Source: Actinomadura sp. HBU206391 (GTDB lineage Bacteria; Actinomycetota; Actinomycetes; Streptosporangiales; Streptosporangiaceae). From it: DNA of 64,000 nt. Positions 3,813-35,350 of the stretch are shown here, piece after piece; the stretch's first letter is position 1, and each line of letters begins with the position of its first letter. Under the pieces are notes generated by a model. That model was not told the DNA's origin. It saw only the letters and a list, made by a program, of their open reading frames with translations, and did no database searches. The translations under genes were made by a program, and so were the position numbers. The stretch spans positions 1 to 64,000 of the forward strand of contig NZ_JABVEB010000016.1 in NCBI RefSeq assembly GCF_014323665.1, written 5' to 3'.

Positions 3813-3882
3813 GCGCAACGGCGCCGGCTGGTGGCCACCCGGTGAGGAGGGATCCGATGGCACGATCGCAGGCCGCGCGGAC

Positions 3883-7242: not shown

Positions 7243-7389
7243 CTCAGTGTCCTCAGCGCTCTGGTCGTCGACCGGCCGACATGGGCGGCCGGCCCTCCAC
7301 GTCCGACTGTGCGGACCACGGCGGCTGCCGCCAGCGCCGGCCGCCGGACTGTCTGCTGGAGAGCCCACCGAACCTGGGAGATGACACGT

Positions 7390-18126: not shown

Positions 18127-18222
18127 GCGATGCCCCTCGAGGTTCTGCGGTCGTCTCCCGACTGTTCGTGGGTGATCGGCAAAGACCGTCCGCCGACGCG
18201 CGCGGAGGGCAAGGCCCGCCCG

Positions 18223-18873
18223 TCAGCGCGCCCGGATCGCGTATCCGTCCGGGCCGCGTTCGACCGTGATCTCCACGCGACGGGACGCGGCGTTCCCGTC
18301 CCGCGTGATCGTCGCGCTGAACAGGTACTGGCCGGTCCCTGTGACGCGGGGATCCTTGACGGTGATCTCTCCGGCCACCGAGCCCCGCGGGTACGCGGGC
18401 GCCGCGGAGGGCCTGGCGGCGCCGACGAACAGGATCCCGGTCCAATCACCGGTCGCCTCTGCGGTGGCGGCGGCGAACGCCACGTTCCGGGCACCGGCCG
18501 GGACGACCGTCGTCCCGCCGCCGGTCACCGGGACCCGTACCGCGGCGGTGGCGGTGAAGTCCTCGGTGGGCGCCTCCCCCGGGGCAGGTGACGGCGCACC
18601 GGTGCCGGGTGTGGCGGATGCCGCCTCGTCCGCGGAGGGTGCGGGGGTGACGGTGTAGGGGTTCAGCGACCGCACCGCGAACCGCCGTTCGTCGCCGCCG
18701 GCGTCCTCCGACGATCCGCCACGACCGAACACCGCGCCGAGCAGCAGCATCGCGATGACCCCGGCGAGCGCCACCCACACCACGAGGTCCCACCATTCGG
18801 GCAGCTCGGTGCGGTCCCAGGGGCGGCTGCGCCGGTCGAAGCCCTCGCGGACGTAGTCGGTTATCTTCGGCAT
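18223..18873 (-). CDS. Membrane-anchored secretion-locus protein
   Basis: The product is 216 aa and starts at ATG 18873. A cytoplasmic N-terminus (MPKITDYVREGFDRRSRPWD) leads to one membrane helix (LVVWVALAGVIAMLLLGAVF, about residues 30-50). A Pro/Ala/Thr linker follows, then a C-terminal beta-rich domain of about 110 residues on the outside. The plan resembles VirB8/TcpC-type bitopic components, but I see no diagnostic motif. It lies 96 bp upstream of the cell-wall hydrolase gene in the same direction and is divergent from the PrgI/TcpE-like gene. Confidence 0.7.
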   Translation of the reverse strand: MPKITDYVREGFDRRSRPWDRTELPEWWDLVVWVALAGVIAMLLLGAVFGRGGSSEDAGGDERRFAVRSLNPYTVTPAPSADEAASATPGTGAPSPAPGEAPTEDFTATAAVRVPVTGGGTTVVPAGARNVAFAAATAEATGDWTGILFVGAARPSAAPAYPRGSVAGEITVKDPRVTGTGQYLFSATITRDGNAASRRVEITVERGPDGYAIRAR

Positions 18874-18953
18874 ACCGTTGACCGTCGGTGCCGGAAGGCG
18901 TCCGGCAACCGGCGGGCGTGGCGGCCGGGGCGGGGCCGCGCACTGTCCAACGC

Positions 18954-19601
18954 GTGAGTGACAACGACGCCGTGAGCGGCCCGGTGATGCTGGCCGCCAC
19001 CAACATGCTCAAGCCGCCGCCGGCCGTCATCGGCAGCCTGAACAGGGAGATCACGCTGCCGCGGACCGTCAGGCTGGCCACGCTCGCCGCCGTCGCCACG
19101 GGGGCGGTGCTGGGCTTCCTCGGCACGCTGTTCCTCTTCGGCGCGGGGCTGTACGCCTTGTTGTACGGTCCGGCGCTGGGCGGCGTGATCGGGTGGGCGC
19201 TGGTGAACTTCTCCCCGTTGCGGGAGGAGTCGATGGCCAGGTGGCTCGGCCTGCAGGCGAACCAGACCCGCAAGCGCAAGCTCGTCGTCGACGGACGGCA
19301 GGTCCGCCTCTACGTGGGCATCGCGCCGCTGCGCCGCACGGCTGTGGGGACGGTGCGGATGCTGCCCGGCGGCGTGCCCGTCGACAGCGTGCGATGGGAC
19401 GCGCGCGGCGTCCCGCAGCAGGAGATCCCGGGCGCCGCACGGCTCACCGCCGCGACCCGCCTCCGGAAGAAGCCGGCCCTGTCGGACCGGGCGGCCGGCG
19501 AGGGCCCGCGTGTCCCAGGCCGAACCCCCGGTCGAGCGCCGCGCAAGGCCCGCCGCGAGAACCGGCATGCGAACCGGCGCGAGGCCCGCACAGGCGAATG
19601 A
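18954..19601 (+). CDS. PrgI/TcpE/VirB3-like two-helix membrane protein
   Basis: I choose GTG 18954 (VSDNDAVSGPV), because the 22 codons upstream in the open frame look non-coding and overlap the promoter of the divergent gene. The product is 215 aa. Two adjacent membrane helices (LATLAAVATGAVLGFLGTLF and AGLYALLYGPALGGVIGWAL) occupy about residues 45-90. A soluble domain follows, and the last 60 residues are strongly basic (Arg/Lys/Pro). This two-helix hairpin plus cytoplasmic domain is the PrgI/TcpE/VirB3 pattern, the usual membrane partner of a VirB4-type ATPase. It starts the 19-24 kb operon. Confidence 0.65.
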   Translation: MSDNDAVSGPVMLAATNMLKPPPAVIGSLNREITLPRTVRLATLAAVATGAVLGFLGTLFLFGAGLYALLYGPALGGVIGWALVNFSPLREESMARWLGLQANQTRKRKLVVDGRQVRLYVGIAPLRRTAVGTVRMLPGGVPVDSVRWDARGVPQQEIPGAARLTAATRLRKKPALSDRAAGEGPRVPGRTPGRAPRKARRENRHANRREARTGE

Positions 19602-19700
19602 GACACCGAGCCGGCCCCGCGGTCGCTTGCGCTTCCACGCGGTGACGGAACGGTCTTCGCTGTCGGCCCCCCGGCGGGCGGAGAGTAACAGGAGAGGGAC

Positions 19701-20951
19701 ATGTCAGCAGAGTCGCCTACCCGTTTCGTGATGGTGCCGGCCCGCCGTTCGGACGAGCCGACGGCGCGCAGGCGGGCCAGACGCATTCTGGGCGCGCTGT
19801 TCCTTGCCGCCGGCCTCAGCGCCGTCTCGGTGTTCGTCGCGCTGTCCAGAGGCCAGAGCGAGGCCGACCTGTCGGCGGTCGATCCGCAGGGCCGCGAACT
19901 GGCGCACACGGCGGCGGTCACCTACCTCGCGGGCGGCCACCAGAACGTGCCGCACGCGACGTCCTTCGATCCCGAAGACACGGCCAGGGCCGCCGCCGAC
20001 CTGTCCGCGGGGCGGCAGGCGGTCCCGCTGCCCTACCGATCGCTGAACTGGGTCGGGTTCACCCCGCAGCATTTCGGCTCGGAGAACGCGGGCTTCACCG
20101 ATTTCGAGGTGCACCACTTCCTCGTCGCGCTCGGCGGCCCCGTCCCCACGGCGGAGCCGCGGCGGACGCCGCGGACGGGCCAGGATTCCCCGAACCAGTC
20201 GGCCACGGCGGCGCCGACGGCGTCCCCGCAGGCCACGGCCTCCCCGACACCGTCCGCGGCGCCGTCCAGCGCTTCGGCTCCGAATGGTCCGGCCGCGCCT
20301 ACCCCGGGCGGCGGCCCGGCTTCCGCGGCGCCTTCCGGCAGCCCCGGCCCGGCGTCCGACGGTGGCGCGGCAGCACCCCCCACGAACGTGCTGCTGCTGG
20401 ACGTCCCCGTCCTCGTCAGCGAGCAGGGTCCGCGGCTGGCGGCCGCACCCGCCTTCTCCACCGTGAGGAGCGGGGTCGGCGAGCCCGCGGGGAAGGGCGA
20501 TTACACCAACTACGGCAACCTTCTGGCCGACGTGAGCGAGTCGGTGAAGAATCAGGTCGCGGCGTGGGCCAGGGCCTACGTCACCGGCGACTCGACCGCC
20601 TTGCTGACTCTCACCGGGGACCAGAACAGCACACACCATTACCTCGGCCTCAGCGGGTTCACTCTGCCCGCCTCCGGCTCGGCCGTGCAGATCCAGTCGG
20701 CGATCAGATCCGCCGCGGGACGACTCATCGTCCGGGTGCGGGTCCTGCTTGCCAGACCCGTCCCCGGCAACACGGTCTCCTCCGGAAACACCGCCGAAGA
20801 CGATGCCACCGGCCCGCAGTTCACCACCTACGCGGACTTCGACCTGCTGGTAGGGGCGCCGACCGGGGCGCGGCCTCCGATTCTCGCCTGGGGCCCGGCC
20901 GGGTCGGCGGCGGAGCTCGAGCCCTACTCCAACGCCCTCACCCGGCCCTGA
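19701..20951 (+). CDS. TcpC/VirB8-like conjugation protein
   Basis: ATG 19701 follows AGGAGAGGG; the product is 416 aa. A basic N-terminus and one membrane helix (ILGALFLAAGLSAVSVFVAL, about residues 32-52) anchor a long external part. An Ala/Pro/Thr-rich linker at about residues 150-220 divides this part into two domains. The second (EQGPRLAAAPAFST to the end) includes 'VKNQVAAWARAYVTGDSTALLTLTGD', the helix-then-strand start of an NTF2-like fold. TcpC proteins of Gram-positive transfer systems have exactly this anchor plus two NTF2-like domains. It probably forms the periplasm-equivalent scaffold of the channel. Confidence 0.7.
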   Translation: MSAESPTRFVMVPARRSDEPTARRRARRILGALFLAAGLSAVSVFVALSRGQSEADLSAVDPQGRELAHTAAVTYLAGGHQNVPHATSFDPEDTARAAADLSAGRQAVPLPYRSLNWVGFTPQHFGSENAGFTDFEVHHFLVALGGPVPTAEPRRTPRTGQDSPNQSATAAPTASPQATASPTPSAAPSSASAPNGPAAPTPGGGPASAAPSGSPGPASDGGAAAPPTNVLLLDVPVLVSEQGPRLAAAPAFSTVRSGVGEPAGKGDYTNYGNLLADVSESVKNQVAAWARAYVTGDSTALLTLTGDQNSTHHYLGLSGFTLPASGSAVQIQSAIRSAAGRLIVRVRVLLARPVPGNTVSSGNTAEDDATGPQFTTYADFDLLVGAPTGARPPILAWGPAGSAAELEPYSNALTRP

Positions 20952-20990
20952 CCTTTTGCACCGGAACAGTACGAAAACAAAGGACGTGAC

Positions 20991-21320
20991 ATGAAATTCA
21001 CCGATTCGTACTTCCCGCTCGCCGAACCGCCCGGTGAAGACGGCGCGACCGACTTCCTCGAGTCCGATTTCGGCGGCGTCCTGGAAGCCTTCTGCGGCGC
21101 GGTCGGAGTCATCATCGCAGTGATCTGCATCTTCCGCATGATCAACCACATCACCCGCGGCAAGCCGGGCGACGGCTTCAAGACGCTCGTCTTCGGCCTG
21201 ATCATCGGCGGGATGCTGTTCAACCTGACCATGACCATCGACGCGGTGGGGGCCATGTCCGGAATCGTGGAGAGCGCCTTCGACAGCGTCGAGTCCGTCA
21301 CCGGCACCGGCAGCGACTGA
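20991..21320 (+). CDS. Small VirB2/TcpD-like membrane protein
   Basis: ATG 20991 follows AAAGGACGTG; the product is 109 aa. An acidic N-terminus (residues 1-28) is followed by two membrane helices (FCGAVGVIIAVICIFRMI and TLVFGLIIGGMLFNLTMTI) joined by a short basic loop (ITRGKPGDG). The size and hairpin topology fit VirB2-type pilins and TcpD-like channel subunits, which are usually small and follow the scaffold gene. It lies 39 bp after the TcpC-like gene and 37 bp before the coupling protein gene. Confidence 0.65.
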   Translation: MKFTDSYFPLAEPPGEDGATDFLESDFGGVLEAFCGAVGVIIAVICIFRMINHITRGKPGDGFKTLVFGLIIGGMLFNLTMTIDAVGAMSGIVESAFDSVESVTGTGSD

Positions 21321-21357
21321 GCGCGGCGGGCGGCCAGACCGAGGAGGGGAGGCGAGC

Positions 21358-23259
21358 ATGGCGAACATCTTCGGGTCGGACACCAGGCCAGGAGAGTCCG
21401 AGAGCGGCGGATACCTGCTCACGACCCTGATCATGGTGGCGCTCGCGATCGCCGTGGTGCTCCTCGTCCCGGCCATCTGCGGGGCGGCCATCTTCATCAC
21501 ACTGCGCCGGTTCCTGGTCCGCCGGGACTGGATCATCGTGACGCTGGCGGGCGTGGTCGGATTTGCCCTGCATCCCAGGGAGAACGCGTTCGCCTACGGC
21601 TACTGGCTGCTCGGCTTCTTCGACTACGGCCCGGGTGACCCGCGCCGCGTACCGGTCACCGTGGTGCTGTGCGTGGCGGCGGTGCTGGCGGGCTGCGCCG
21701 GCATGATCTTCGGCAGGGCCATCGGCTCGCCGGTCGCCGGCATCAGCAGGTTCCTGCGTATCAAGAACATGATCTCCGATCTGTTCGACGGCACGTGGAT
21801 ACGCCGCAAGGAATCGGTCGACGACCCGATCACGCCTGGGAGCATCCGGCGGGACATGCTGAAGCGGCGGGTGTCCGGCCGGGTCACCCTTCGGGACATC
21901 CCGGCGGTGCGCGGTCCGCACGCGACGAGGAAGACCGCACGGACGCCGCTCAAGGCCAAGGCCATCCCGGTCGGCCTGGGAGCCCGCGACCGGCCGGTGT
22001 GGCTGAGCGTCCAGGAGATGGGCATGCACGGCGCGGTGGTCGGGTCCACCGGCAGCGGAAAGACGGTCACCCTGATGTGGATCATCGGGGCGGCCCTCGA
22101 CATGGGGTACGACGTCACCGTCATCGACATGAAGGAGGACACCGAGCCGGGCGGCCTGCGCGACTTCCTGCGCGCCTACGCGCGGATGCATCGGGTGCCG
22201 CTGCAGGAGATAGCCCTGGCCGACGAGCGGCCGGCCTACTGGTTCAACGTCCTCGCCGGCATGTCCGCCGACGAGGCTTTCGACACCATCATGACGATGG
22301 TCGAGTTCGACGACGCCTATTGGCAGGCGCTGAACCGCAAGATCCTCCAGCAGGTGGTGCAGATCTGCTATCAGGCCTGCGAGGTGGCGCCGGGTCGCTT
22401 CGGCCCGCCGACGCTGCTGGAGATCGGCAAGATCATGGAGCAGGGCACGGCCATGCGGAGCGCCGTCCGGGAGCGGGTCCTGGCGATCGACGCGGCTGAG
22501 GGCACCGGCCACTGCAAGGACCGCTTCACCAACATCCTGCAACCGTCGGCGGACGAGGCCAAGTCGGCGGCGAGCTTCGGCACCAAGCTGACCGGACTGT
22601 ACGACTCCGGCGCGGGCCGGCGCATCCTCGTCCCCGGTGGTGACCGGCAGATGATCGACGTTCGGCGCGAGGGGCTGACCTATGTCGGGCTCAACTCGCT
22701 GGGACAGCCCGACATGGCCAGAGTCCTCTCCTCCTCGGCGCTGCAGCGCCTGTCGGTCTACGCCGCGCAGCGCATCCAGGGCCGTGCCCCCAAGGACCGG
22801 CCGCGCCTGATCGTCGTGGACGAGGCGAACTTCATCGATCGGGGCATCGCCATGAACATGCTGTCGCGGGTCCGGTCCGCGCTGTTCAGCATGATCCTTT
22901 GCACCCAGGGCCCGACGGACTGGATCGACAAGGACGGCGACGACTGGTCCCGGCTGGCGCAGAACATCAACTGGCTGATCGCCATGGCGCAGTCCTCGCC
23001 CGAGTCGGCCGAGAAGTGCGCGGAGTTCCTCGGCATGCGGGTCAACAACACCTTCGGTGAACGTGTCACCCAGGGCGGCCACCCCAAGCAGTTCAACGTC
23101 ATGGAGAAGGAGCAGTTCATCGTTCCGCCCCAGGAGCTGCGAGATCTGGGCACCGGCGAGGGGTACCTGCGGGTCAACAAACCGGACAGCAGGGTCGAGT
23201 ACGTGGTCGTGCCGATGCGGACCCAGGAACTGAGCCGGTACGAGAGGCGGACGGCATGA
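21358..23259 (+). CDS. VirD4/FtsK-type coupling ATPase
   Basis: The product is 633 aa from ATG 21358, with GAGGGGAGG upstream. Three probable N-terminal membrane segments lie at residues about 20-135 (ending with VTVVLCVAAVLAGCAGMIFG). The ATPase core starts near residue 195, with Walker A GSTGSGKTV (about residue 230) and Walker B LIVVDEANF (about residue 483). A 'LCTQGPTDWI' sensor segment follows. The order matches TcpA/VirD4 coupling proteins, which bring DNA or protein substrates to the channel. An ATGA overlap couples it to the next gene. No relaxase gene accompanies it in this window. Confidence 0.85.
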   Translation: MANIFGSDTRPGESESGGYLLTTLIMVALAIAVVLLVPAICGAAIFITLRRFLVRRDWIIVTLAGVVGFALHPRENAFAYGYWLLGFFDYGPGDPRRVPVTVVLCVAAVLAGCAGMIFGRAIGSPVAGISRFLRIKNMISDLFDGTWIRRKESVDDPITPGSIRRDMLKRRVSGRVTLRDIPAVRGPHATRKTARTPLKAKAIPVGLGARDRPVWLSVQEMGMHGAVVGSTGSGKTVTLMWIIGAALDMGYDVTVIDMKEDTEPGGLRDFLRAYARMHRVPLQEIALADERPAYWFNVLAGMSADEAFDTIMTMVEFDDAYWQALNRKILQQVVQICYQACEVAPGRFGPPTLLEIGKIMEQGTAMRSAVRERVLAIDAAEGTGHCKDRFTNILQPSADEAKSAASFGTKLTGLYDSGAGRRILVPGGDRQMIDVRREGLTYVGLNSLGQPDMARVLSSSALQRLSVYAAQRIQGRAPKDRPRLIVVDEANFIDRGIAMNMLSRVRSALFSMILCTQGPTDWIDKDGDDWSRLAQNINWLIAMAQSSPESAEKCAEFLGMRVNNTFGERVTQGGHPKQFNVMEKEQFIVPPQELRDLGTGEGYLRVNKPDSRVEYVVVPMRTQELSRYERRTA

Positions 23260-23942
23260 GGGCGATCAGGATCAGTCCGCGGGCGGTGGCGAGGGAGGCC
23301 GCGATCGTCGTGGCGCTGGGGGGAGCACTGGCGGGTGTTTCCCTGGGGCTGCTCGTTCTCCAGTACGGCGAGGCGCTCCGGCTCGGATTCGCGGATGTGC
23401 TCATCGCAGGCGCGGCGGGCATGGCGGCCGCCTCGGCCGTACGGGCGACCGCGCGGCTGCACCGCCACTGGAAGAGGACGGTCGGCCGGTTCACGGCGGC
23501 CGCCGCGCTGTGCGCCCTGGCCGCGCTCGCCGGAGCGCTCGTGGTGATGATCCCGGGCGAATGCCCTGGCGGTCTGTTCAGTACGGGCCGGTGCGGAGTG
23601 CGTGAGGCGGCCGCCTGGGGACAGGTGGCCGGACTGGCGGCGGTCGTCAACTTCGGGGTCGCCGGTCTCACGCTGTGGTTCGTACGGCTCGCACGGGCGC
23701 TCTCGCGGACCGTACGGGAAGTGATTCGCGACGGGACGGCGCAGGGCGTCATCTGGATCAAGGCGCTGGGCGGTGTGCGGCGGCGCGGTTCCGGCAGGCG
23801 GTCGTCGAACGGGCCGCGCCGTGCCGGCAGGCCGGCCTCAGATGGACGGCGCCGCGACCCGCGGGAACCGAAGGGCCGCCCGACGCCGCGCCGCACCGAC
23901 GCCGAACGCGCCCGACGCCGACGATTGCGTGCCCGCGCCTGA
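23256..23942 (+). CDS. Polytopic membrane protein, last gene of the operon
   Basis: The product is 228 aa; ATG 23256 overlaps the coupling-ATPase stop (ATGA). Four hydrophobic segments lie in residues about 12-145 (for example IVVALGGALAGVSLGLLVLQ, and AALCALAALAGALVVMIP). A very basic tail rich in Arg, Gly and Pro follows (residues 175-228). A CPGGLFSTGRCG loop between helices 3 and 4 contains two cysteines that could pair on the outer face. No family is recognised. Its position suggests a secretion-system membrane component. Confidence 0.65.
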   Translation: MRAIRISPRAVAREAAIVVALGGALAGVSLGLLVLQYGEALRLGFADVLIAGAAGMAAASAVRATARLHRHWKRTVGRFTAAAALCALAALAGALVVMIPGECPGGLFSTGRCGVREAAAWGQVAGLAAVVNFGVAGLTLWFVRLARALSRTVREVIRDGTAQGVIWIKALGGVRRRGSGRRSSNGPRRAGRPASDGRRRDPREPKGRPTPRRTDAERARRRRLRARA

Positions 23943-24075: not shown

Positions 24076-24630
24076 TCAGGGCGCATGCGGACGCCAGATG
24101 ATCGACGAGACCACAAGCAGGACGCCTAGACAGGTGATGACGAAGGTGACGAAGACGGGCCAGAGGGAGACGGCACCGGACCGCGGCAACCGGTCCGCCA
24201 GTGCTCGGCGGACCCACCTCCCGGTGGCGTCGTCACCGCCGGCTGCCAGAGGCGCGTTGCCGTCGTCGATGCCGTCATCCGGGTACCGGGCGGTCGGCGC
24301 GACGTCGGTGGAACGGTTCTGGACGGCGTCGTCGGCAGGAGCCGCCCAGCCCGCTGACGCCCCCGCTCGGGGCGCGCCACCGCCTCCGGACCAGCCTCCC
24401 GACGCTGTCTCGTACAAGGCATCGGACACGGCATTCGACGTGCCCCCTGTCGTCGTCCTCGCCGCGGCGGCTCCTGGGGGTGTGACGGTCATGCCGTTCC
24501 AGGTCTCCGACGGTTCGAATGACGCCCAGCCGGCGCCCTGCGTGTCGTCGATGACGATCCATGGGTTCTGCTCCCAGGTCCCGTCCGGCTCCACGCCCTT
24601 TGGGCTCGCCGGTTCCCGCTCATCGTTCAT
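24076..24630 (-). CDS. Tail-anchored protein co-transcribed with the sigma factor
   Basis: The product is 184 aa; its ATG 24630 overlaps the sigma-factor stop by 4 bases. Residues 1-40 are acidic and Trp-rich (WEQNPWIVIDD, GAGWASFEPSETWNG), and the middle is a flexible Gly/Ala/Thr region. One membrane helix (FVTFVITCLGVLLVVSSII) sits eight residues from the C-terminus, so the bulk would be cytoplasmic. No anti-sigma zinc motif (HxxxCxxC) is present. Tight overlap with a sigma-factor gene is typical of anti-sigma or co-regulator genes, so a membrane-tethered sigma regulator is my inference. A secretion-apparatus protein is the alternative. Confidence 0.65.
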   Translation of the reverse strand: MNDEREPASPKGVEPDGTWEQNPWIVIDDTQGAGWASFEPSETWNGMTVTPPGAAAARTTTGGTSNAVSDALYETASGGWSGGGGAPRAGASAGWAAPADDAVQNRSTDVAPTARYPDDGIDDGNAPLAAGGDDATGRWVRRALADRLPRSGAVSLWPVFVTFVITCLGVLLVVSSIIWRPHAP

Positions 24631-25556
24631 CCTGCCCGTCCTTCGAGCCTTTCGGGACCGTCCACCCCGTCCACGATGCGTTCGGCGAGCTTGGCCAGCG
24701 CCTTCTGCTGAATCTGGCGTACCCCCTCACGGGACAGCCCGAGCCGCTCGCCGATGACGCGCAGCGACTGCTCCGGCTCGCCGTCCAGCCCGAACCGGCG
24801 CGTCAGCACATAACGTTCGCGAGGGGCGAGATTCGACAGGCCGCGGCCGCTGACGGCGCGCAGATCGAACCGCAGCAACACCTCCTCCTCGACGCCCGGG
24901 GAGGGGTCGGCCAGCCGTTCGTCCCACGGCACCTCGTACTCGCCCTCTCCCGGGGCGGGCGCGTGCAGGCTGTCGAGCCGGGGCGCGTCCAGGACACGGC
25001 GCACTTGTGCCTCGGTCACCCCGGCGCGCCGGGCGACGTCGGCATGGTCCACTGGGGCGTCAGGCCCGGCCTCCTCCAGGAACGCCCGCTCGGCGGCCAG
25101 GATGGCAGGGCGCTTCTCGAAGTCCCCGGGATTGAGATTGGGATGGTCGGCGTCCCGAACCGCCCGCAGCACCTCCCGCTGGATCGGCTTGAAGGCCCAG
25201 CCGGCGAAAGGGCCGCGCTCCGGGTCATAGGAGGAGATCGCCCACAACAGGCCGACCTTGCCGGCGCTCTCGAAATCCTCGATGTGCTCATTGGACCTGG
25301 AGGTGAACATGGCGACGTATTTGCGGACCAGGCCGAAGTTCACGTTCAGGATTTCGTAGGTGACATCCTCCAGTTCGCGCTCGGCCCGGCGCAACGCCAG
25401 TTCCGAGAGCATGTCCAGCTCACCGGCGTCGGCCCGGGCGCGCAGAACGGTGAGCTGCTCCTGGAGCTCTTTGCGGCGCGCGAAGTGTTCGTTGTTGCGG
25501 GTGCGGAAGTCCTCGGCGGCGGGACGCCCGCCACCGGCCAGCTGCACGATGTTCAT
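24627..25556 (-). CDS. Sigma-70-family factor
   Basis: I place the start at ATG 25556 (MNIVQLAGG), because GAGGAG lies 4 bases upstream; ATG 25571 has none. The product is 309 aa. Residues about 65-125 hold region 2 ('LVRKYVAMFTSRSNEHIEDFESAGKVGLLWAISSYDPERGPFAGWA'-type pattern, with the F-AGW-F promoter-melting part). Residues about 150-180 contain a region 3-type helix-turn-helix (DHADVARRAGVTEAQVRRVL). The C-terminus has a region 4 HTH (SLRVIGERLGLSREGVRQI). All three regions put it in group 3-like sigma-70 factors rather than ECF. It lies at the end of the secretion locus, next to a NusA-like gene, and may direct RNA polymerase to the locus's own promoters (inference). Confidence 0.85.
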   Translation of the reverse strand: MNIVQLAGGGRPAAEDFRTRNNEHFARRKELQEQLTVLRARADAGELDMLSELALRRAERELEDVTYEILNVNFGLVRKYVAMFTSRSNEHIEDFESAGKVGLLWAISSYDPERGPFAGWAFKPIQREVLRAVRDADHPNLNPGDFEKRPAILAAERAFLEEAGPDAPVDHADVARRAGVTEAQVRRVLDAPRLDSLHAPAPGEGEYEVPWDERLADPSPGVEEEVLLRFDLRAVSGRGLSNLAPRERYVLTRRFGLDGEPEQSLRVIGERLGLSREGVRQIQQKALAKLAERIVDGVDGPERLEGRAG

Positions 25557-25577
25557 CTGTCTCCTCGCCATTGGAGG

Positions 25578-25673
25578 TCATTTCATTTGGCGATGGCAGA
25601 TGAGCGCGACGGCAATACCGGCAAAGGCCATAAAGAGGCAAGGCCTTATCAACCACACCAAATAAAACAACAT
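25578..25673 (-). CDS. 31-aa membrane mini-protein upstream of the sigma gene
   Basis: From ATG 25673 the minus strand reads a 31-aa peptide that is almost entirely one membrane helix (MLFYLVWLIRPCLFMAFAGI then AVALICHRQMK). It ends 21 bases before the sigma-factor start, in the same direction. It is noticeably AT-richer than its neighbours (codons TTG, TTT, TAT, ATA, AGG), and AAAGAG directly precedes the ATG. It could be a leader peptide, a small regulator, or chance. No signal other than hydrophobicity and position supports it. Confidence 0.4.
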   Translation of the reverse strand: MLFYLVWLIRPCLFMAFAGIAVALICHRQMK

Positions 25674-25740
25674 CTCTTTTGTGTGCTGATTTCCCCCAGC
25701 ACCCTGATATGGAGAAGATGACACGCGGGCGTCGCCGACC

Positions 25741-25762
25741 GCCCCTGGAGAGTTCCAGGGGC
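25741..25762. other. Hairpin in the 25.68-26.06 kb region
   Basis: GCCCCTGGA-GAGT-TCCAGGGGC is a perfect 9-bp stem with a 4-nt loop. It lies in the 390-bp region between the sigma operon and the NusA-like gene. It may be a terminator, an mRNA leader or an operator. I see no other gene in this stretch. Confidence 0.4.
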
Positions 25763-26066
25763 CCATCACCCCAGCGGCCTCAAAGCGGGGGTTGCGGCTT
25801 ACGCGGGAACCGGTGGTCTTGCGGTGTTACCGTCCGGCCCATGGGCGCCTTGGCAAGGAATTGCTCGTCAGAGGTACTCATGCCTAATCGGTGTTGCCGG
25901 TGTACTTCCGAGCGGGTGGGAAGGTGCACCCCGCAGGTCGGCGAACGCCGGGTTGCGGAATCTGGAAACGCGCGGACTCTAGAGGTCAGGGGCAGGCGCG
26001 GCCCGAGATGCGGAGTGCGACCGGCCGAGCCAAGCCCCATCTGACAAACGAAAGGACCCATGACCG

Positions 26067-26843
26067 GTGCGAACGATCCTGAGCGACCTCGGTCTCGAAT
26101 CCCCGCTCGTCGGGACGACGGTGACGGCGCACATCACGTCGAGCGGTCCCGACGGATTCCGCTGCACCGTCTACGATGTCGCCACCCTCGAGCCCCGTGA
26201 GGCGGTCCTGCCGCGTGCCGATGCCTTCGATCTCCCGGAGGGTGCCGCCGCCCCGGAGCTGGCGGTGGGTGACACCGTCATCGCGCTGGTCGTCGGCGTG
26301 TCCGGTACGGCGCAGCAGGGCACCGAGCGGCTCATGCTGTCGGCCACGGCACCCGAGTTGGTCGAGCGCATCCTGTCGGGCTTCGTCGACGACATCGTCA
26401 CCGGCAAGGTCGTCATCAAGGCAGTCGCGCGCGTCGCCGGGACCAAGACGAAGGTCGCCGTGGTGCCCACCACGAAGGGCGTCGACGCTCGGGGAGCCTG
26501 CATCGGCCGGGGCGCCAGCCGGCTCAAGGGTGCCGAAAGCCTGCTGAACCGCGGTTTCGGCAGGGAGCGGCTGGAGATCATCGAGTATTCGGGCGACCCG
26601 GCCACCTTCCTGACCAACGCCATGAACCCGGTGCGGGTCACCGAGGTTCTCATTCGTGGCGACAACGCGATCGTGGCGGTCGAGGAACACCAGCTCTCGG
26701 GCGGGATCGGAGAGGGCGGGCTGAACGCCCAGCTCGCCGGGCGGCTCACTGGGCACTACGTCCGGGTCGTCAAGGCCGGCACCGACCTGCGCGAGGTGCT
26801 CCGCCAGCTCGCGACCGGCACCGGCGCCCCGGAAACCGGCTGA
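26067..26843 (+). CDS. NusA-like RNA-binding protein (S1-KH1-KH2, no N-terminal domain)
   Basis: The product is 258 aa from GTG 26067, with AAAGG 11 bases upstream. Residues about 12-100 resemble the NusA S1 domain, including the following 'ERLMLSATAPELVERI' helix. Residues about 105-175 match KH1 of NusA very clearly (KVVIKAVARVAGTKTKVAVV, then GVDARGACIG). Residues about 180-245 match KH2 (HQLSGGIGEGGLNAQLAGRL). The canonical RNA-polymerase-binding N-terminal domain (about 125 residues in bacterial NusA) is absent. In KH1 the GxxG loop reads GRGA, so the second glycine is changed; KH2 keeps GEGG. It is therefore a divergent paralogue, not the housekeeping gene. It is divergent from the sigma operon and 13 bp upstream of the Lon-type protease gene. 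A role in antitermination or RNA binding is inferred. Confidence 0.8.
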   Translation: MRTILSDLGLESPLVGTTVTAHITSSGPDGFRCTVYDVATLEPREAVLPRADAFDLPEGAAAPELAVGDTVIALVVGVSGTAQQGTERLMLSATAPELVERILSGFVDDIVTGKVVIKAVARVAGTKTKVAVVPTTKGVDARGACIGRGASRLKGAESLLNRGFGRERLEIIEYSGDPATFLTNAMNPVRVTEVLIRGDNAIVAVEEHQLSGGIGEGGLNAQLAGRLTGHYVRVVKAGTDLREVLRQLATGTGAPETG

Positions 26844-26856
26844 TGTCCCTTCCACT

Positions 26857-27825
26857 GTGAGCAACGGCGTCGTACGGAGTGACGACGAACGGGACCCGAT
26901 CCCGTTGAACCGGCGGCTGCTGTACGGCGTGGTCGCTTCTCTGGTCATGCTGGCGGGCTTCGGGGTGACCGGTTCTCCGTACCACCGCGTCGATCCAGGC
27001 CCGGTGATCCAGGTCGGCCCGCCTGCCGCCGGGTCCTGGTCAGTCATGACGGCCCACGTGCGGCACAGCAATTGGTTCCAGTGGGCGGCTGCCGAACTCA
27101 CCGGGGAACGCACCATCCGCGGCGGCGGCGACGGCTCCCCGTCGTTTGCCCGGGCGATGGACACGGCACAGACCAACGCCGTGGTGGTCGCCGCCCAGCT
27201 CGCCGCCCGCCGGACTCCGGTGGGCGGTACCGGGCTGCAGGTGATCGATGCGGGGGGCATGAGCGGACTGCGACCCCGCGACATTCTGCTGGCCGCCGGG
27301 CACGGCGAGGATCTGATCCCCTTGCGTACACACGCCGACCTCCAAGCGGTGGCCGCCCGGCGGAGCAACCTACGCGTGCTGGTCGTCCCCCTGAGTCCCG
27401 GCGACAAGTGGGGAAGCGCCGAGATCCGACGGATGCCCGCCACCCGGCTCGCGCAGATACGGGTCAGCCCGGATGTCGCGGCCACCGCCCACCCACTGGG
27501 CGCTGTGCGAGGACCGTCGGCCGGGCTCCTCCTGGCTCTGGCCCGCGTCGACGCGCTCACCCCGGGCGACCTGACCGGCGGCCGCCGCGTCGCCGGGACC
27601 GGCGCGATCACTTCCGACGGCACCGTGACCAGCGTCGGCGAGATCGCCGAGAAGGTCCGCGCCGCGGCAACGGCGCGCACGGACGTCTTCTTGGTGCCGG
27701 CCTGGCAACGGGCCACAGCGGCCGCGGCGGCCCAGGGCACCGGAGTGCGGATCGTGCCGGTCCGCTCGGCACCGGAGGCCGCCCGCTGGCTCTGCGCAAC
27801 CGGCGGCCACGCCCCGATCTGCTAA
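26857..27825 (+). CDS. Membrane-anchored Lon-type (S16) serine protease
   Basis: The product is 322 aa from GTG 26857. One N-terminal membrane helix (LLYGVVASLVMLAGFGVTG, about residues 20-38) is followed by a middle region with a degenerate PDZ-like part (GLQVIDAGGMSGLRPRDILL). The C-terminal S16 domain has the catalytic serine in 'GAVRGPSAGLLLAL' and the lysine in 'SVGEIAEKVRAA', with the intervening 'GTGAITSDGTV' typical of Lon and YlbL-type proteases. There is no AAA domain. YlbL-like enzymes act outside or at the membrane. Here it is probably co-transcribed with the NusA-like gene and may process a secretion component or the tail-anchored sigma partner (inference). Confidence 0.85.
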   Translation: MSNGVVRSDDERDPIPLNRRLLYGVVASLVMLAGFGVTGSPYHRVDPGPVIQVGPPAAGSWSVMTAHVRHSNWFQWAAAELTGERTIRGGGDGSPSFARAMDTAQTNAVVVAAQLAARRTPVGGTGLQVIDAGGMSGLRPRDILLAAGHGEDLIPLRTHADLQAVAARRSNLRVLVVPLSPGDKWGSAEIRRMPATRLAQIRVSPDVAATAHPLGAVRGPSAGLLLALARVDALTPGDLTGGRRVAGTGAITSDGTVTSVGEIAEKVRAAATARTDVFLVPAWQRATAAAAAQGTGVRIVPVRSAPEAARWLCATGGHAPIC

Positions 27826-27884: not shown

Positions 27885-28049
27885 ATGAGGACGCAACAGC
27901 GACTCCGTCTCGATGAGGTCCCTGTGCCGATTCACACCCTCCGCTTCGCCGTAGGCGTTAAGCCCCCTCCGAGTGTCTACCCAACCGGGGCGAACACACC
28001 GCCCGGCGAAAGACAGTTGCCGCTTCCTAAGAAGTCTGGACAGTCATGA
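27885..28049 (+). CDS. Possible small 54-aa protein
   Basis: ATG 27885 opens a 54-codon frame (MRTQQRLRLDEVPVPIHTLR and onward, Pro/Lys-rich, no helix). It ends in an ATGA overlap with the frame that begins at 28046 and leads into the next small gene. The overlap hints at coupling, but the ribosome-binding site is weak (CGGAG, 13 bases away) and the composition is unconvincing. The rest of 27826-28126 shows nothing else. Confidence 0.25.
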   Translation: MRTQQRLRLDEVPVPIHTLRFAVGVKPPPSVYPTGANTPPGERQLPLPKKSGQS

Positions 28050-28126
28050 CTAAGAGCCGGGAAACACGGACGGCTCCTACTGACGGCAATGGCCCGTCAC
28101 ATCACCCCGAGAGAAAAGAGTCACAC

Positions 28127-28231
28127 ATGTCGGACAACAACCACCAGCACGTGTGGATACCGCAGGGGACCACGCCGAACGGGCAGATCGTGTACACCTG
28201 CAACGGTTGCGGAGGGTCCAAGGTCGAGTGA
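28127..28231 (+). CDS. 34-aa CxxC mini-protein
   Basis: ATG 28127 lies 6 bases after GAGAGAAAAGAG, a much better site than that of the in-frame ATG at 28046. The 34-aa peptide has an HQHVWIPQGT part, a beta-like 'QIVYTCNGCGG' and a basic/acidic end. The CxxC and the N-terminal histidines suggest a metal-binding knuckle. A strong terminator follows. No family name can be given. Confidence 0.55.
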   Translation: MSDNNHQHVWIPQGTTPNGQIVYTCNGCGGSKVE

Positions 28232-28362: not shown

Positions 28363-28512
28363 TTCACGGCTCTGTAACCCGTCGATGTGTGCACCGTGGT
28401 CGCCGCGCCGCCCGGTCTGAATGTGCAGGCGGTCTGCTGCCCGGCAATGCCGGCTCGGGGGAATCGGGAGCCTCAAGCTGACGACTGGTACCTGAAAGAA
28501 TCGGCCTGATCG

Positions 28513-29271
28513 TTAGGTGTCGGTCGTCCGGGGTGGGCGGCGGGTGGGGAGTAGGGACAGGTGTTCCTCGCGGACCAGGCCGAAGCGCAGGGCGACGTCC
28601 ACCACGGCCGCTCGTTTGCCGTCCTGCCGCTCCTCTTCGAAGGGCTGCTTGACGCGCAATTTCTGTTCGGCGAGGTAATCGATGTGGAAGTTGACCGCTC
28701 GCAGGGTGGGGTTGCAGTCGGGCGACGCGCTGAGGCGTTCCACGACCTGACGCGAGGTGGGGACCGCGGTCGAGGACTCGTCCCGTAGCCGCGGTTCGCA
28801 GAGGGCCACCAAGACGAGGAAATAGATCGCGTCCTGGTCGAGGGAAAAGGCCGAGATGGTCGAGGAGCCGTCCGGTTCGGGCAGCTCGAGGTCGACCGAT
28901 TCCAGGTACATGTGCTGGGGCGCGTACACCTGGAAGGAGGCGGTCGGGCCCTGGGTGGTGAGCACGACGCGGGAGAACTCGAAGGGCACCGGGCAGGAGG
29001 CGCGTCGCGGGGGGATCCGCAGATACTCTCCCGCGCCCTCCGGATTCTCCACCACGAAGGTGCGGTCGTTGCTGAAGTTGCTGAGCCGCCAGTGGTCGTC
29101 GACGGCGAGGATCTCTCCGGCCAGGCGCGGAATCGTGGGATTGTCCAGGTGCAGGTCGACCAGGCGACCGGGTGCGCCGCGTCCGAATCTGAGGGTCTCG
29201 CCCGGCGCCAGTTCCTTGCGTACCGGGTCGCGACGCGAGTCCGATGGCAGATACACCAGAACGCCCGACAC
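28513..29271 (-). CDS. FHA-domain protein
   Basis: I take GTG 29271 as the start (VSGVLVYLPSDSRR), with GAGGTG upstream; the product is 252 aa. Residues about 22-90 form an FHA phosphothreonine-binding domain: LRFGRG, 'NPTIPRLAGEI' in place of the usual S-R-H strand, then 'WRLSNFSNDRTFV'. The remainder is helical and ends in a winged-helix-like part ('YLAEQKLRVKQPFEEER', 'DVALRFGLVREEHL'). FHA proteins read Thr phosphorylation by Hanks-type kinases, and such a kinase gene starts 120 bp away on the other strand. The usual His of the FHA core is not evident, so phosphopeptide binding should be treated as likely, not certain. Confidence 0.75.
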   Translation of the reverse strand: MSGVLVYLPSDSRRDPVRKELAPGETLRFGRGAPGRLVDLHLDNPTIPRLAGEILAVDDHWRLSNFSNDRTFVVENPEGAGEYLRIPPRRASCPVPFEFSRVVLTTQGPTASFQVYAPQHMYLESVDLELPEPDGSSTISAFSLDQDAIYFLVLVALCEPRLRDESSTAVPTSRQVVERLSASPDCNPTLRAVNFHIDYLAEQKLRVKQPFEEERQDGKRAAVVDVALRFGLVREEHLSLLPTRRPPRTTDT

Positions 29272-29390
29272 GCCGTCACCTCGTGGAACTCGTCCGATGG
29301 GGGAGCGTTTATCCCGTAGAGACGCTACCCGGGATCTTCCGCCGTCTATTCTGCCCACCGGGCACGCCTAGTCCTTCGAGGGGGAGCGGA

Positions 29391-31415
29391 ATGGAGCCGT
29401 TGCGCGCGGATGATCCGGCGCGGATCGGTGACTACCGGCTGGTCGCGCGGCTGGGGGCGGGGGCGATGGGCCGTGTGTTCTTGGGGCAGGGCCCATCTGG
29501 AGACCCCGTCGCGGTGAAGGTCGTCCACGCGCGCTTCGCTCATCGCCAGGACCGCCGCGAGCGGTTCGCCCGGGAGATCGCCGCCGTGCGCGGCATCGAC
29601 GCGGCGTACGTCGCGCCGGTGGTGGACCACGACGCGAGCGCGGCCGAGCCCTGGCTGGCCACCGCCTATCTGCCCGGCCTCACGCTGCGGCAGGTGGTGG
29701 AGCTGCACGGCCCGCTGCCCGCGCCGTCAGTGCGCGCCCTCGGGGCGGGGTTGGCGAGGGCGCTGACGGCGATCCATCGGGCCGGTGTCCTGCACCGGGA
29801 CCTCAAGCCGTCGAACCTGGTGCTCACGCCGGACGGTCCGCGGGTGGTGGACTTCGGCATCGCCCGCCCCGACGGAGCCGACACGATCACCGTGCCCGGG
29901 TCGCTGCTCGGCACCCCCGGCTACATCCCGCCCGAGCGGATTCGCGATCGGCGCTCGGGACGGGAAGGCGACGTCTTCGCCTTCGGTGCCGTGCTGGTGT
30001 ACGCCGCCACGGGAGAAGGGCCGTTCGGCGCCGGCTCGGCGCCGGCGCTGCTCTACCGCACGCAGTCCGAGGAGCCTCGGCTGGACGCGCTGCGTGCGGC
30101 CGTGGACGATCCGGGGCTCACCGAGATCATCATGAGTTGTCTCGCTCGTGACCCCAGGCGACGTCCCACGGCCGAGGAGCTGACCCAACGATTCACCGAG
30201 GCGCCCGACCCGGTGGGCACACGGTGGCTGCCCGACGAGGTGGCCGCGAGCGTCACCGGCGCAGGTGGTCCCCCAAGGCCGCCGCATGCGCCGGGCGGGA
30301 GGCGTACCCGGCGGACCGTTCTCGCACTCGGCGCCACCGGCGCCGTTCTGGCGACGCTCGGACCGTCGGCGTACGGCGCGTTCTCGGCAGGGGTCCGGCA
30401 GCCGACCAAGGACCGGACGCCGCTCTGGACCTACAGCAGTCCCGACAGTGGGAACGAGCACTGGTTCACCAGGCCCACCGTCGTCGGGGACATGGTCTAC
30501 CTCAGCTCGACCATGGGCGTGCATGCGCTGAACTGCGCGCGGGGCGAGTTGTCGTGGACGGCCAACCGAGGCATGCCCGTTCGTTCGAGCGCCACGGTGC
30601 TGAGGGCGGGAACGGTGCTGAGGGAGGGAACGGTGCTGTTCAGCGACGGATGGCTGTGGGCTCGACGCGCCACTGATGGATCCCCCGAACCTGACTGGCA
30701 GGAGCCATGGGTCGGTATCACCGGCGCCCCGGCCGCGGGCGGCGATCAGGTCTTCCTGTTCGACACTGTCGGCTACCTGTCGGCCTATGACGGCGGTACG
30801 GGTCGCCGCCGGTGGAGGCTGCGCCTCGTCAAGCCCGGCGCGGGCGGTGACATCGACCCGGTCCGCGCCCAGGGTGGCCTTGATCCGATGATCGCGGGCG
30901 GTCTCGTCTACGCCGCGCCGGGCGGCGTGTTCGCGGTCGATCCCAAAGTCCGGGCCGTGAGGTGGCGGTTCGGCGAAGGCACCGCCGCACCGGCGATTCA
31001 CGGCGGCCTGTTGTACACCGCGGGTGCCGATCGCGTACACGCTCTGAACGCGGCCAGTGGCGCCGTGCGCTGGAGCCGTGACGTCGGCGCTCGGATATCG
31101 AGCGGTGTGACGGTCGCCGACGGCCTGGTGTTCGCGGGCGACGACTCCGGACGCCTGCACGCCCTGGACGCCGCGACCGGACGACCGCGCTGGCGCTTCG
31201 ACACCAACGGGCCACTGCGCGCCGCCCCGGCGGCCGCTCCGGGCACGGTCTTCGCCGGGTCGGACAACGATCGTCTCTACGCGATCACGACGGCAGATGG
31301 GAGAGTGCGTTGGAGCCATCCAGTGGGACGCCAGACCGAGGTCCACGCCCAGGTATGGCGCGACCGGGTCTTGGTATGCGGTGACCTCACCCGGCTCTAC
31401 GCCTTCCAGGTATGA
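29391..31415 (+). CDS. Ser/Thr protein kinase with external PQQ-type propeller
   Basis: The product is 674 aa from ATG 29391, with GGGGGAG upstream. The N-terminal kinase (residues about 15-270) has a Gly loop (LGAGAMGRV), the VAIK-type lysine (VAVKVVH), HRDLKPSN, DFG (VVDFGIA) and GTPGYIPPE. A transmembrane helix (TVLALGATGAVLATLG, near residue 310) separates it from a beta-propeller of repeated 'G...W..........ALD..TG...W' blades (for example LHALDAATGRPRWRF). The propeller probably senses an external ligand or folds as a docking domain. An ATGA overlap joins it to the next gene. Confidence 0.9.
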   Translation: MEPLRADDPARIGDYRLVARLGAGAMGRVFLGQGPSGDPVAVKVVHARFAHRQDRRERFAREIAAVRGIDAAYVAPVVDHDASAAEPWLATAYLPGLTLRQVVELHGPLPAPSVRALGAGLARALTAIHRAGVLHRDLKPSNLVLTPDGPRVVDFGIARPDGADTITVPGSLLGTPGYIPPERIRDRRSGREGDVFAFGAVLVYAATGEGPFGAGSAPALLYRTQSEEPRLDALRAAVDDPGLTEIIMSCLARDPRRRPTAEELTQRFTEAPDPVGTRWLPDEVAASVTGAGGPPRPPHAPGGRRTRRTVLALGATGAVLATLGPSAYGAFSAGVRQPTKDRTPLWTYSSPDSGNEHWFTRPTVVGDMVYLSSTMGVHALNCARGELSWTANRGMPVRSSATVLRAGTVLREGTVLFSDGWLWARRATDGSPEPDWQEPWVGITGAPAAGGDQVFLFDTVGYLSAYDGGTGRRRWRLRLVKPGAGGDIDPVRAQGGLDPMIAGGLVYAAPGGVFAVDPKVRAVRWRFGEGTAAPAIHGGLLYTAGADRVHALNAASGAVRWSRDVGARISSGVTVADGLVFAGDDSGRLHALDAATGRPRWRFDTNGPLRAAPAAAPGTVFAGSDNDRLYAITTADGRVRWSHPVGRQTEVHAQVWRDRVLVCGDLTRLYAFQV

Positions 31416-32815
31416 GTACCGGTGAGTCCGGCCGGCTGAGCCGGCGCCGCGCGATCGCAGGGCTGGCCGGAGCCGCGATCGCCGGAAGCGCGACCGTCTG
31501 GCCCCTGCGCGAAGAACAGGACGCGTATCCGAGCATCCCCGCTCCGGACGGGCCGCTGCTGTGGACGGCCGAGGTGAAGCTCGCCGCGGATGAATTCTTC
31601 GGGCCGGTCACCGCGGGGCACCTGCTGCTGGTCGAGCGGCCGTTCGCCGCGCGAGGACGAGAGCGGTGGACCGTACTGTCGTGTCTGGACACCGGGACAG
31701 GACGCCGGCTTTGGTCGGTCTCCCTCGGGCCTTCTACGGCGAGGCTGCAGAAGGTGGTCGTCGCCGGCTCCGTCGTACTGGCGCGGACGTATGAGGCCCT
31801 GCACGCGTTCGACCTTCACACGGGACGCCTGCTTTGGCGCCGGGAGCGGAACACGGGGGGTTCGGCGTCCCTCACGGTGACGGTCGGCGGGGGCCTCGTC
31901 CACGACAGCGGTGATGAGGAGAACGCGGTCTCGACGACCACGTCAAGGCATGCTCTGCACGCCTATGAGGTGGGCAGCGGACGCTTGCGCTGGACGACGG
32001 TCGTCCAGCCGCGTGTGGTGACGGCGGACGCCCCGATCTACGCGGCGGGGTCGCTGCTCGGTACCGCCGTCATGTCGGGCGTGTCCCGGAACTCGGAGAC
32101 GTTCGCCTACGCCGTGGACGCGACCACCGGTGAACAACGCTGGTCGCGACGCCTCGGCGTATGGGACTCGGGGCCGGGCTCCGGCGTGGCCCATGCCGCG
32201 GGCACCTTCTATGTCTTCTCAAGGGGACGCGGCGTTCTGCATGCCGTGGACGTGTCCACCGGAAGGATTCGATGGCAGGTTCGGCCGAGACCGCGTTCCG
32301 GTGGAGGCGCCGGCCTTTCCGTCGGTGAGAGGACGCTCGACGCAGGCGTCCCCGTGGTCGCCGGTACGACCGTCTATGTGTGCGACGAGCACGGCGTTCT
32401 GCACGCCTTCGACGTGCGTGACGGTCGGCGGCGCTGGGCCTTCGGCACCGACGCCAGGCCGTCGAAGGTGCACATGGTTCCCGAGCCGCGGACCGGGGAT
32501 GGCCAGGTGTACTTCCGGGCCAGTCACACCGGTAGGAGCAACAGCACCCTGTACGCTTTGGGCGCCGACGAGAGACGGCCCCGCTGGCAGCGGCGCGCCG
32601 ACGGCTCCTACAGTGGCCCGCTCGTGTCCGGGAACATGCTGCATGTGTCGGACGGGGACGCCATCACCGGGTACGACCCGATCGACGGGTCGGTCCGTCG
32701 TCGCGTGGACCTCAGGGCCCTCGGCGCGGCCGGGACAACCGAACTGGTCACCGACGGTGCGAATGTCTATGCCCTTTCCGGCGTCCAGGTCCTCGCCCTC
32801 CGCCTGGAGAGCTGA
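31412..32815 (+). CDS. Exported PQQ-like beta-propeller protein
   Basis: The product is 467 aa. ATG 31412 overlaps the kinase stop. The N-terminus SRRRAIAGLAGAAIAGSA is a twin-arginine-type signal, so export is likely. The rest is a propeller of PQQ-like repeats with the 'LDxxTGxxLW' motif several times (for example CLDTGTGRRLWSV, AFDLHTGRLLWRR, AVDVSTGRIRWQV). It is essentially the sensor half of the flanking kinases without a kinase domain. It might form a complex with them or compete for the same ligand (inference). Confidence 0.8.
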   Translation: MSTGESGRLSRRRAIAGLAGAAIAGSATVWPLREEQDAYPSIPAPDGPLLWTAEVKLAADEFFGPVTAGHLLLVERPFAARGRERWTVLSCLDTGTGRRLWSVSLGPSTARLQKVVVAGSVVLARTYEALHAFDLHTGRLLWRRERNTGGSASLTVTVGGGLVHDSGDEENAVSTTTSRHALHAYEVGSGRLRWTTVVQPRVVTADAPIYAAGSLLGTAVMSGVSRNSETFAYAVDATTGEQRWSRRLGVWDSGPGSGVAHAAGTFYVFSRGRGVLHAVDVSTGRIRWQVRPRPRSGGGAGLSVGERTLDAGVPVVAGTTVYVCDEHGVLHAFDVRDGRRRWAFGTDARPSKVHMVPEPRTGDGQVYFRASHTGRSNSTLYALGADERRPRWQRRADGSYSGPLVSGNMLHVSDGDAITGYDPIDGSVRRRVDLRALGAAGTTELVTDGANVYALSGVQVLALRLES

Positions 32816-32817
32816 CG

Positions 32818-35043: not shown

Positions 35044-35350
35044 GGAGGGATGGGGAATACAGCCCCTGCCTCACGATCCCCGTTCCTGCGACGGCCACCA
35101 CCTTGGAGCCGCGGCACCACCCGTTGGAACACAACTGTGGCGGCCCCTTGGCGGCGGACTGGGGCGGATCAGGGAGCTGGTCGACGGGCTCGGCAGGCCG
35201 AGCCCGATATTGGTCCGCGGCCACGTTTTGGAACATTTGTTGTCACCTGGGTCGGCGGCCGGACGGTCCACGTCAACATCACCGTGTCCCCGGGCCAGTG
35301 AATAGCGCGAGCACGGGTCCATCTGAGCCGACAGGAAGGTAAGGCGCGAC

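Follow-up and report, generated by a model that had tools for sequence, protein, structure and literature searches.

The first 64,000 nucleotides of contig NZ_JABVEB010000016.1 of the soil actinomycete Actinomadura sp. HBU206391 (hereafter the window; source assembly 8.2 Mb) contain a group of genes resembling a type IV secretion system (T4SS), at the end of which lie a sigma factor gene and three companions. These four open reading frames had been singled out in an earlier note on this DNA, and all of them are present: a sigma-70 family factor on the minus strand (24627-25571), a tail-anchored protein overlapping it on the same strand (24076-24630), and, on the plus strand, a NusA-like protein (26067-26843) and a membrane-anchored protease of the S16 family (26857-27825). 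The idea put forward there, that the locus has its own sigma factor, is strongly supported by sequence comparison. The co-occurrence of the sigma gene with the secretion genes and a promoter signature shared along the locus point to a factor dedicated to it largely, not strictly. Co-occurrence was assessed in 343 genomes of the family, and Actinomadura alba and Actinomadura sp. CNU-125 are among the nearest named relatives of the window genome. Gene calls beyond the window come from a simple script based on codon usage, and their starts may be off.

The proposed dedicated sigma is a protein of 314 amino acids recognised by Pfam and NCBIfam. Its description as a complete-looking sigma-70 factor was borne out, with regions 4 (Sigma70_r4, 5e-15) and 2 (Sigma70_r2, 2.9e-7) clear in Pfam and region 3 weak (0.075), and by these regions it is classed as an alternative sigma of the sigma-70 family outside the extracytoplasmic function (ECF) group. 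The residues with which sigma-70 factors contact the -35 element and melt the -10 element are well established. Compared with HrdB, the genome's own housekeeping sigma, the locus sigma retains the R-E-x-x-R-Q of region 4.2, from which a TTG-type -35 is predicted. In regions 2.3/2.4, WW is replaced by KP and the Q..T pair that reads position -12 by R..L; the W-W and Q..T residues that mark a housekeeping (RpoD/HrdB) factor reading TATAAT are thus missing from it. A search of plasmids for homologues of the sigma returned none above 33% identity. Some sigma matches carried 'in-frame TGA' flags and were at first read as pseudogenes. This reading was rejected, as most of the called genes reach almost full length (about 297 amino acids) and the flagged stop is probably close to the C-terminus; genome G286 has one copy that is truly broken.

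The promoter signature emerged from the alignment of divergent intergenic regions. It was first spotted by eye in these loci, and a spacing scan, genome-wide counts and the distant locus of Bailinhaonella serve as controls. Across 1.02 Mb of related loci, TTGC[CG][GC]-N17-AC[N]GT[CT] had 79 matches outside gene interiors and 7 within them; outside gene interiors, all the other spacings between 8 and 26 gave 0-3 matches each and scrambled blocks at spacing 17 gave none. Positions that took no part in the search are also conserved, namely a T at -1 (0.85) and a CG ahead of ACGGTC. In the window, a slightly looser pattern gave nine matches where 1.8 were expected, a number reached in 0 of 100 shuffles; seven of them precede genes and the other two lie inside 29244-31415 and 31412-32815. 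The distance from the signature to the start codon is 34-150 bp for most locus genes. Counts in 80 genomes gave a mean of 17.2 strict matches in genomes with both T4SS and sigma, 7.7 in those with the sigma only and 5.2 in those without the sigma (P=3e-7 for 17.2 against 5.2, and P=0.006 for the sigma-only genomes), and the reversed pattern remained flat (4.8, 4.1 and 4.9, respectively). The signature is genuine, and its occurrence is statistically associated with that of the sigma.

On the plus strand, the signature reads TTGCCG-N17-ACAGTC at 2-30 (upstream of a lipoprotein gene, 58-693), GTGCGG-N17-ACGGTC at 2738-2766 (upstream of 2805), CTGCCG-N17-ACTGTC at 7325-7353 (upstream of the VirB4 gene), TTGCGC-N17-ACGGTC at 19627-19655 (upstream of the 19701-23942 operon) and TTGCCG-N17-ACAGTC at 28017-28045 (upstream of a small CxxC protein, 28046-28231). 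On the minus strand, it reads TTGCCC-N17-ACGGTC at 18184-18212 (upstream of the NlpC gene), TTGCCG-N17-ACGGTC at 18880-18908 (upstream of 18223-18873) and, in a weaker form, TTGCGG-N17-ACGGTA at 2694-2722 (upstream of 1414-2574). The -10 of 18880-18908 ends a few bases before the ATG of 18223-18873, which suggests a leaderless transcript. The earlier note had named six starts at which a shared motif might be sought. Two of them, 7390 and 18873, carry it, and those of ParA, sigma, 18954 and the NusA-like gene stay at the level of random segments; the motif also stands at starts that were not named there (2805, 18126, 19701, 28046 and, more weakly, 1414). The operon promoters that share TTGC[CG][GC]-N17-ACNGTC are not of the housekeeping type, contrary to the outcome that the note had named as fatal to its proposal. 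A TTG-type -35 combined with a -10 other than TATAAT is what the sigma residues, judged from known sigma-70 contacts, would lead one to expect, and it corresponds to the form of the signature.

The sigma gene is present in all 13 genomes that carry the locus VirB4 (a match of at least 69% identity to the window protein; other VirB4-like genes of the family are only about 27-30% identical) and in 10 of the 330 others. The expectation that all four genes accompany VirB4 in relatives held, the NusA-like gene (at least 63% identity), the S16 gene and the tail-anchored gene each being found in 11 of the 13. Outside the carriers, the NusA-like gene occurs in 2 of 330 genomes and the S16 gene in none of 330, and the 10 sigma-only genomes all lack a tail-anchored gene after the sigma. 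Fisher P values for co-occurrence with VirB4 ranged from 1e-17 to 5e-19, in genomes that are not phylogenetically independent. Gene order in the locus is conserved in several genomes, finished chromosomes included. The presence of this sigma in every locus-bearing genome, together with residues that match the form of the signature, makes it the likely reader of the motif.

Genomes that have lost the machine, wholly or in part, retain traces of it. In A. alba, most of the locus is deleted, an intact sigma gene (L009:7714-8640) stands between remnants of locus genes, and a flank matching 28478-35068 of the window is retained. N-terminal remnants of the NusA-like gene in G265, which lacks VirB4, and in G319, which has it, make both look like decayed full loci. 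Purifying selection acts on the sigma of genomes without the T4SS, with dN/dS values of 0.12-0.35 for the pairs computed; in the sigma-only genomes (L108-L116) the sigma adjoins a PAS histidine kinase and OmpR-type and CheY-type regulators, and in three of these genomes a sigma-type promoter was seen at the PAS histidine kinase gene.

A divergent locus is that of Bailinhaonella, where the sigma is 60% and VirB4 70% identical to the window proteins, most other locus proteins are 30-56% identical, and the gene order is rearranged over two contigs. On these contigs, the signature at spacing 17 was found 10 times outside and 3 times inside gene interiors; the remaining spacings between 13 and 21 gave 0-2 matches each, both classes taken together. 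The sites before the 18223 and NlpC homologues lie at nearly the same distance as in the window. This constitutes out-of-sample support for the signature. The whole system of Bailinhaonella thermotolerans (G027, contigs C9 and C19; L011-L013, L106-L107, L169-L178) is scattered, includes extra sigma-like genes and possibly sits on a large plasmid.

The product of the gene that follows the sigma, 184 amino acids long, gave no family match in the Pfam/NCBIfam scan. A single C-terminal transmembrane segment is predicted at residues 160-178, with six residues beyond it and the N-terminus in the cytoplasm. An N-terminal W(I/V)IxDD and a C-terminal VLLVxxS are conserved, TWNGM occurs in several members, and the middle is long, proline-rich and little conserved. 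The two genes overlap by 4 nt in the window and in most loci, and short overlaps are typical of sigma/anti-sigma pairs. Co-translation with the sigma and restriction to genomes with the T4SS make a putative membrane anti-sigma or sigma tether the best guess and a plausible one. The competing view takes the protein for a structural component of the secretion machine that merely happens to be co-translated with the sigma and has no anti-sigma activity. Such a part would be strictly tied to the secretion genes and missing from sigma-only genomes, as this one is, and might well have a long and variable proline-rich middle; the recurrent overlap with the sigma gene, as in sigma/anti-sigma pairs, and the conservation of a motif on the cytoplasmic side speak against it, and the structural role is left as a serious contender that falls somewhat short of an even chance.

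The secretion genes themselves can be assigned with varying precision. On the plus strand, a VirB4-like ATPase (7390-9912; AAA_10 2e-16, TcpF/VirB4) is followed by a VirB6-like polytopic membrane protein with eight predicted transmembrane segments (9897-13787; its Bailinhaonella homologue is 30% identical). Further on, 18954-19601 encodes a protein with two transmembrane segments, conserved in the loci and labelled PrgI/VirB3-like by inference, after which come a single-transmembrane protein that is VirB8/TcpC-like by position (19701-20951), a small two-transmembrane protein that is VirB2-like by position (20991-21320), a VirD4/TraD-like coupling ATPase identified by family matches (21358-23259) and a three-transmembrane protein conserved in the loci (23256-23942). 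The minus strand encodes an NlpC/P60 cell-wall hydrolase (14476-18126; Pfam 3e-6), a single-transmembrane protein conserved in loci with the T4SS (18223-18873), a ParA/CpaE-like ATPase identified by family matches (5881-7242), and two proteins conserved in the loci, 4504-5823, possibly a degenerate CpaF/VirB11-like ATPase as judged from its sequence, and 1414-2856, whose start is probably at 2574. Another conserved locus protein is encoded at 3802-4392 on the plus strand. The product of 4504-5823 has the look of a degenerate CpaF/VirB11-type protein without a family match, and its gene adjoins that of the CpaE/ParA-like ATPase. VirB4, VirD4 and membrane channel proteins together qualify the locus as a T4SS, in which the VirB6, VirB8, VirB3 and VirB2 equivalents are assigned by topology and gene order only.

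These genes might belong to a mobile conjugative element in which the sigma is merely cargo. The patchy spread of the locus (13 of 343 genomes), the remnants in A. alba, G065, G353 and G317, the scattering of the Bailinhaonella parts on two contigs and the distant VirB4 (37%) on a Euzebya plasmid would be in keeping with such an origin. However, no relaxase or integrase was found among the Pfam-scanned proteins of the window (stretches beyond it were not exhaustively scanned), the locus occupies interior sites of single-contig chromosomes, and its two-component neighbours are common to several genomes. An element of this kind is accordingly unlikely. The lack of a relaxase and an integrase among the scanned locus proteins also makes export, of protein or other cargo, likelier than conjugation. 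The annotated stretches examined around the distant VirB4 genes of Euzebya and Arthrobacter plasmids contain no obvious sigma, NusA or S16 neighbours. In the window (29244-35043), as in A. alba and CNU-125, the locus is bordered by tandem Ser/Thr kinase and PQQ-repeat-like proteins, and this flank differs from the two-component flank of other genomes.

Several observations weigh against a sigma reserved for this locus. Its assignment to the motif is read from the sequence; 10 of the 23 genomes with the sigma lack VirB4, and its survival there implies further targets or a historical reason for its retention; no tail-anchored gene follows the sigma in Bailinhaonella or G319; the motif is missing upstream of sigma, S16 and ParA in the window, and the NusA box has another -10; and the motif sites of orthologous promoters do not count as independent events. 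There is some room for the idea that the bipartite motif serves as operator for some other regulator, or that another host sigma reads it, the neighbouring sigma being incidental: the pairing is deduced from residues, the -35 half (TTGCCGAT) recurs at the NusA promoter with another -10, and in several genomes a two-component system adjoins the locus. A sigma is indicated by the rigid 17-bp spacing, by the distances of 34-150 bp to the start codon in most locus genes and by the restriction of the motif excess to sigma-bearing genomes; no VirB4-carrying genome is without this sigma, and the two-component genes of the other genomes do not lie beside the locus in the window, which renders this explanation improbable. 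The preferred reading is that of a chromosomal T4SS-like locus whose transcription depends mainly on an alternative sigma of its own, with the sigma controlled by being held at the membrane, and we consider it likely.

The NusA-like protein (258 amino acids) consists of S1-KH1-KH2 without the NusA N-terminal domain. It matches Pfam KH_5 (3e-15) and, over profile positions 167-335 of 340, the NusA model TIGR01953 (8e-39), staying below the cut-off of 253 bits, and it aligns with the S1-KH1-KH2 part of Mycobacterium tuberculosis NusA (PDB 2asb, 2e-25) from the end of S1 through KH2. The GxxG loop of KH1 is changed to GRGA, and the true NusA of the window genome is encoded elsewhere, on contig C38. 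Compared with housekeeping NusA, the locus protein shares the S1 end and KH1-KH2 and differs in lacking the N-terminal domain that binds RNA polymerase and in occurring either as a fusion to the 2805 protein or encoded together with it. The latter (2805-3812, plus strand) is a CHCC zinc-finger protein, DnaG-like by motif only; the finger is recognised solely by its C-x5-H-x18-C-x2-C pattern, Pfam gave no match, and an AlphaFold model of low confidence (predicted local distance difference test score 54) returned no significant fold match. In G323, the 2805 homologue and the NusA-like module form one protein of 586 amino acids (L125:9151-10911), and in G249 and G253 (L126, L127) they share one uninterrupted frame; these three genomes belong to other genera and none is a VirB4 carrier. 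The NusA-like gene also persists together with a 2805 homologue in genomes lacking VirB4. Beside the G323 fusion lie a trypsin-like/NTPase/repeat protein and a protein of about 100 amino acids that resemble conflict-system genes, with homologues nearby in G249 and G253. A conserved box on the NusA side (TTGCGGAATC...CGGACTCTAGAGG, 25953-25985, plus strand) shares the -35 half of the signature and differs in the -10 in Actinomadura-type loci.

The 'initiation and elongation pair' that the earlier note saw in the sigma and the NusA-like protein was not supported, as the latter lacks the domain that binds RNA polymerase, has no matching promoter and is linked or fused to the 2805 homologue. That it is a true elongation or antitermination partner for locus transcripts, as its well-conserved KH1-KH2 and strong co-occurrence with VirB4 might suggest, is poorly compatible with the missing domain, the GRGA loop and the association with the 2805 homologue in other genera and in VirB4-lacking genomes, and is improbable; joint action with the 2805 protein in binding RNA or DNA fits better than elongation of the NusA type.

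The S16 protein (322 amino acids) has one N-terminal transmembrane segment, a PDZ domain assigned by reading, and the Ser and Lys motifs of the family, a GPSAG serine motif and a downstream lysine stretch EKVRAA. It matches Lon_C (4e-6) and the SepM-family S16 model (3e-18), and it carries the transmembrane-PDZ-S16 arrangement with a Ser-Lys dyad that is common to SepM/YlbL proteases; with 66 bits against a family cut-off of 200, it is kin to SepM rather than SepM itself. Cleavage of the tail-anchored protein by this protease had been suggested. From hydropathy and charge, however, the protease domain is predicted outside the cell, where only about six residues of the anchored protein would be found, and cutting of its cytoplasmic part is therefore unlikely.

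The way in which the locus would work may be outlined as follows. The sigma would direct RNA polymerase to TTGCCG-N17-ACGGTC(A) promoters and so to the units of VirB4-VirB6, VirD4 (19701-23942), NlpC/P60, 18223, 2805 and 1414 and to a few extra genes. The anchored protein, co-translated with it, would most likely act as an anti-sigma or tether that keeps the sigma at the membrane and frees it on a signal, which might be the assembly of the machine. The S16 protease would probably act extracellularly, with a signal or a part of the secretion machinery as its target, and the NusA-like and 2805 proteins might act together in RNA or DNA binding. The gene identities, their co-occurrence and the signature, with its 17-bp spacing and its genome-wide excess where both T4SS and sigma are present, are observations; the reading of the motif by the sigma, the anti-sigma role and the roles of the protease and the NusA-like protein are what we infer. 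A fuller scheme, in which a tail-anchored partner senses assembly and gates a dedicated sigma, and a NusA-derived/zinc-finger pair acts after transcription, would amount to a FliA/FlgM-like logic for a T4SS and is offered as a tentative and rather doubtful extension.

In relatives, the signature also precedes a TerD plus CAP (cysteine-rich secretory) protein (L152:764-2134), which is a possible export candidate, EamA-type transporters, a further hydrolase of the NlpC/SLT kind and a family of 430-460 amino acids that recurs, with sigma-type promoters, beside the locus (L091:16293-17684, L091:14583-15965, L089:14342-17407 and other loci). For this last family, the best match of an AlphaFold model, to a cyclodipeptide synthase, was weak (E 0.02), and the identity is not claimed.

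Sigma factors dedicated to one secretion machine are known from the flagellum (FliA, with FlgM) and the type III secretion system (HrpL). The locus has in common with them one alternative sigma per secretion apparatus and a small coupled partner; it differs in that the machine is T4SS-like and the sigma subfamily and the promoter are others, and its partner is tail-anchored whereas FlgM is a soluble, exported anti-sigma. A VirB4-type ATPase, polytopic membrane proteins and a cell-wall hydrolase are shared with the TcpF/VirB4 family, the SLP2 transfer genes and cmdABCDEF of Streptomyces coelicolor. The last of these is chromosomal, like the locus studied here, and the parts of its description consulted include no sigma, NusA-like or S16 gene (PMC2782261). 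In Brucella, a sigma/anti-sigma system of the ECF type affects T4SS expression, an input like the one proposed here, and is presented as a stress-response system (PMC8315932). Sigma factors are nowhere mentioned in a 2025 review of T4SSs (PMC12857230), and no description of a T4SS with its own locus-encoded sigma was found in the open-access literature.

The signature of a locus-encoded sigma would allow the whole regulon, candidate cargo included, to be listed from sequence alone. The neighbouring genes that carry it (TerD plus CAP, EamA-type exporters and the repeated family that weakly resembles cyclodipeptide synthases) are leads to the purpose of this T4SS, and the sigma that outlives its machine in several genomes offers a natural experiment in the evolution of a regulon.

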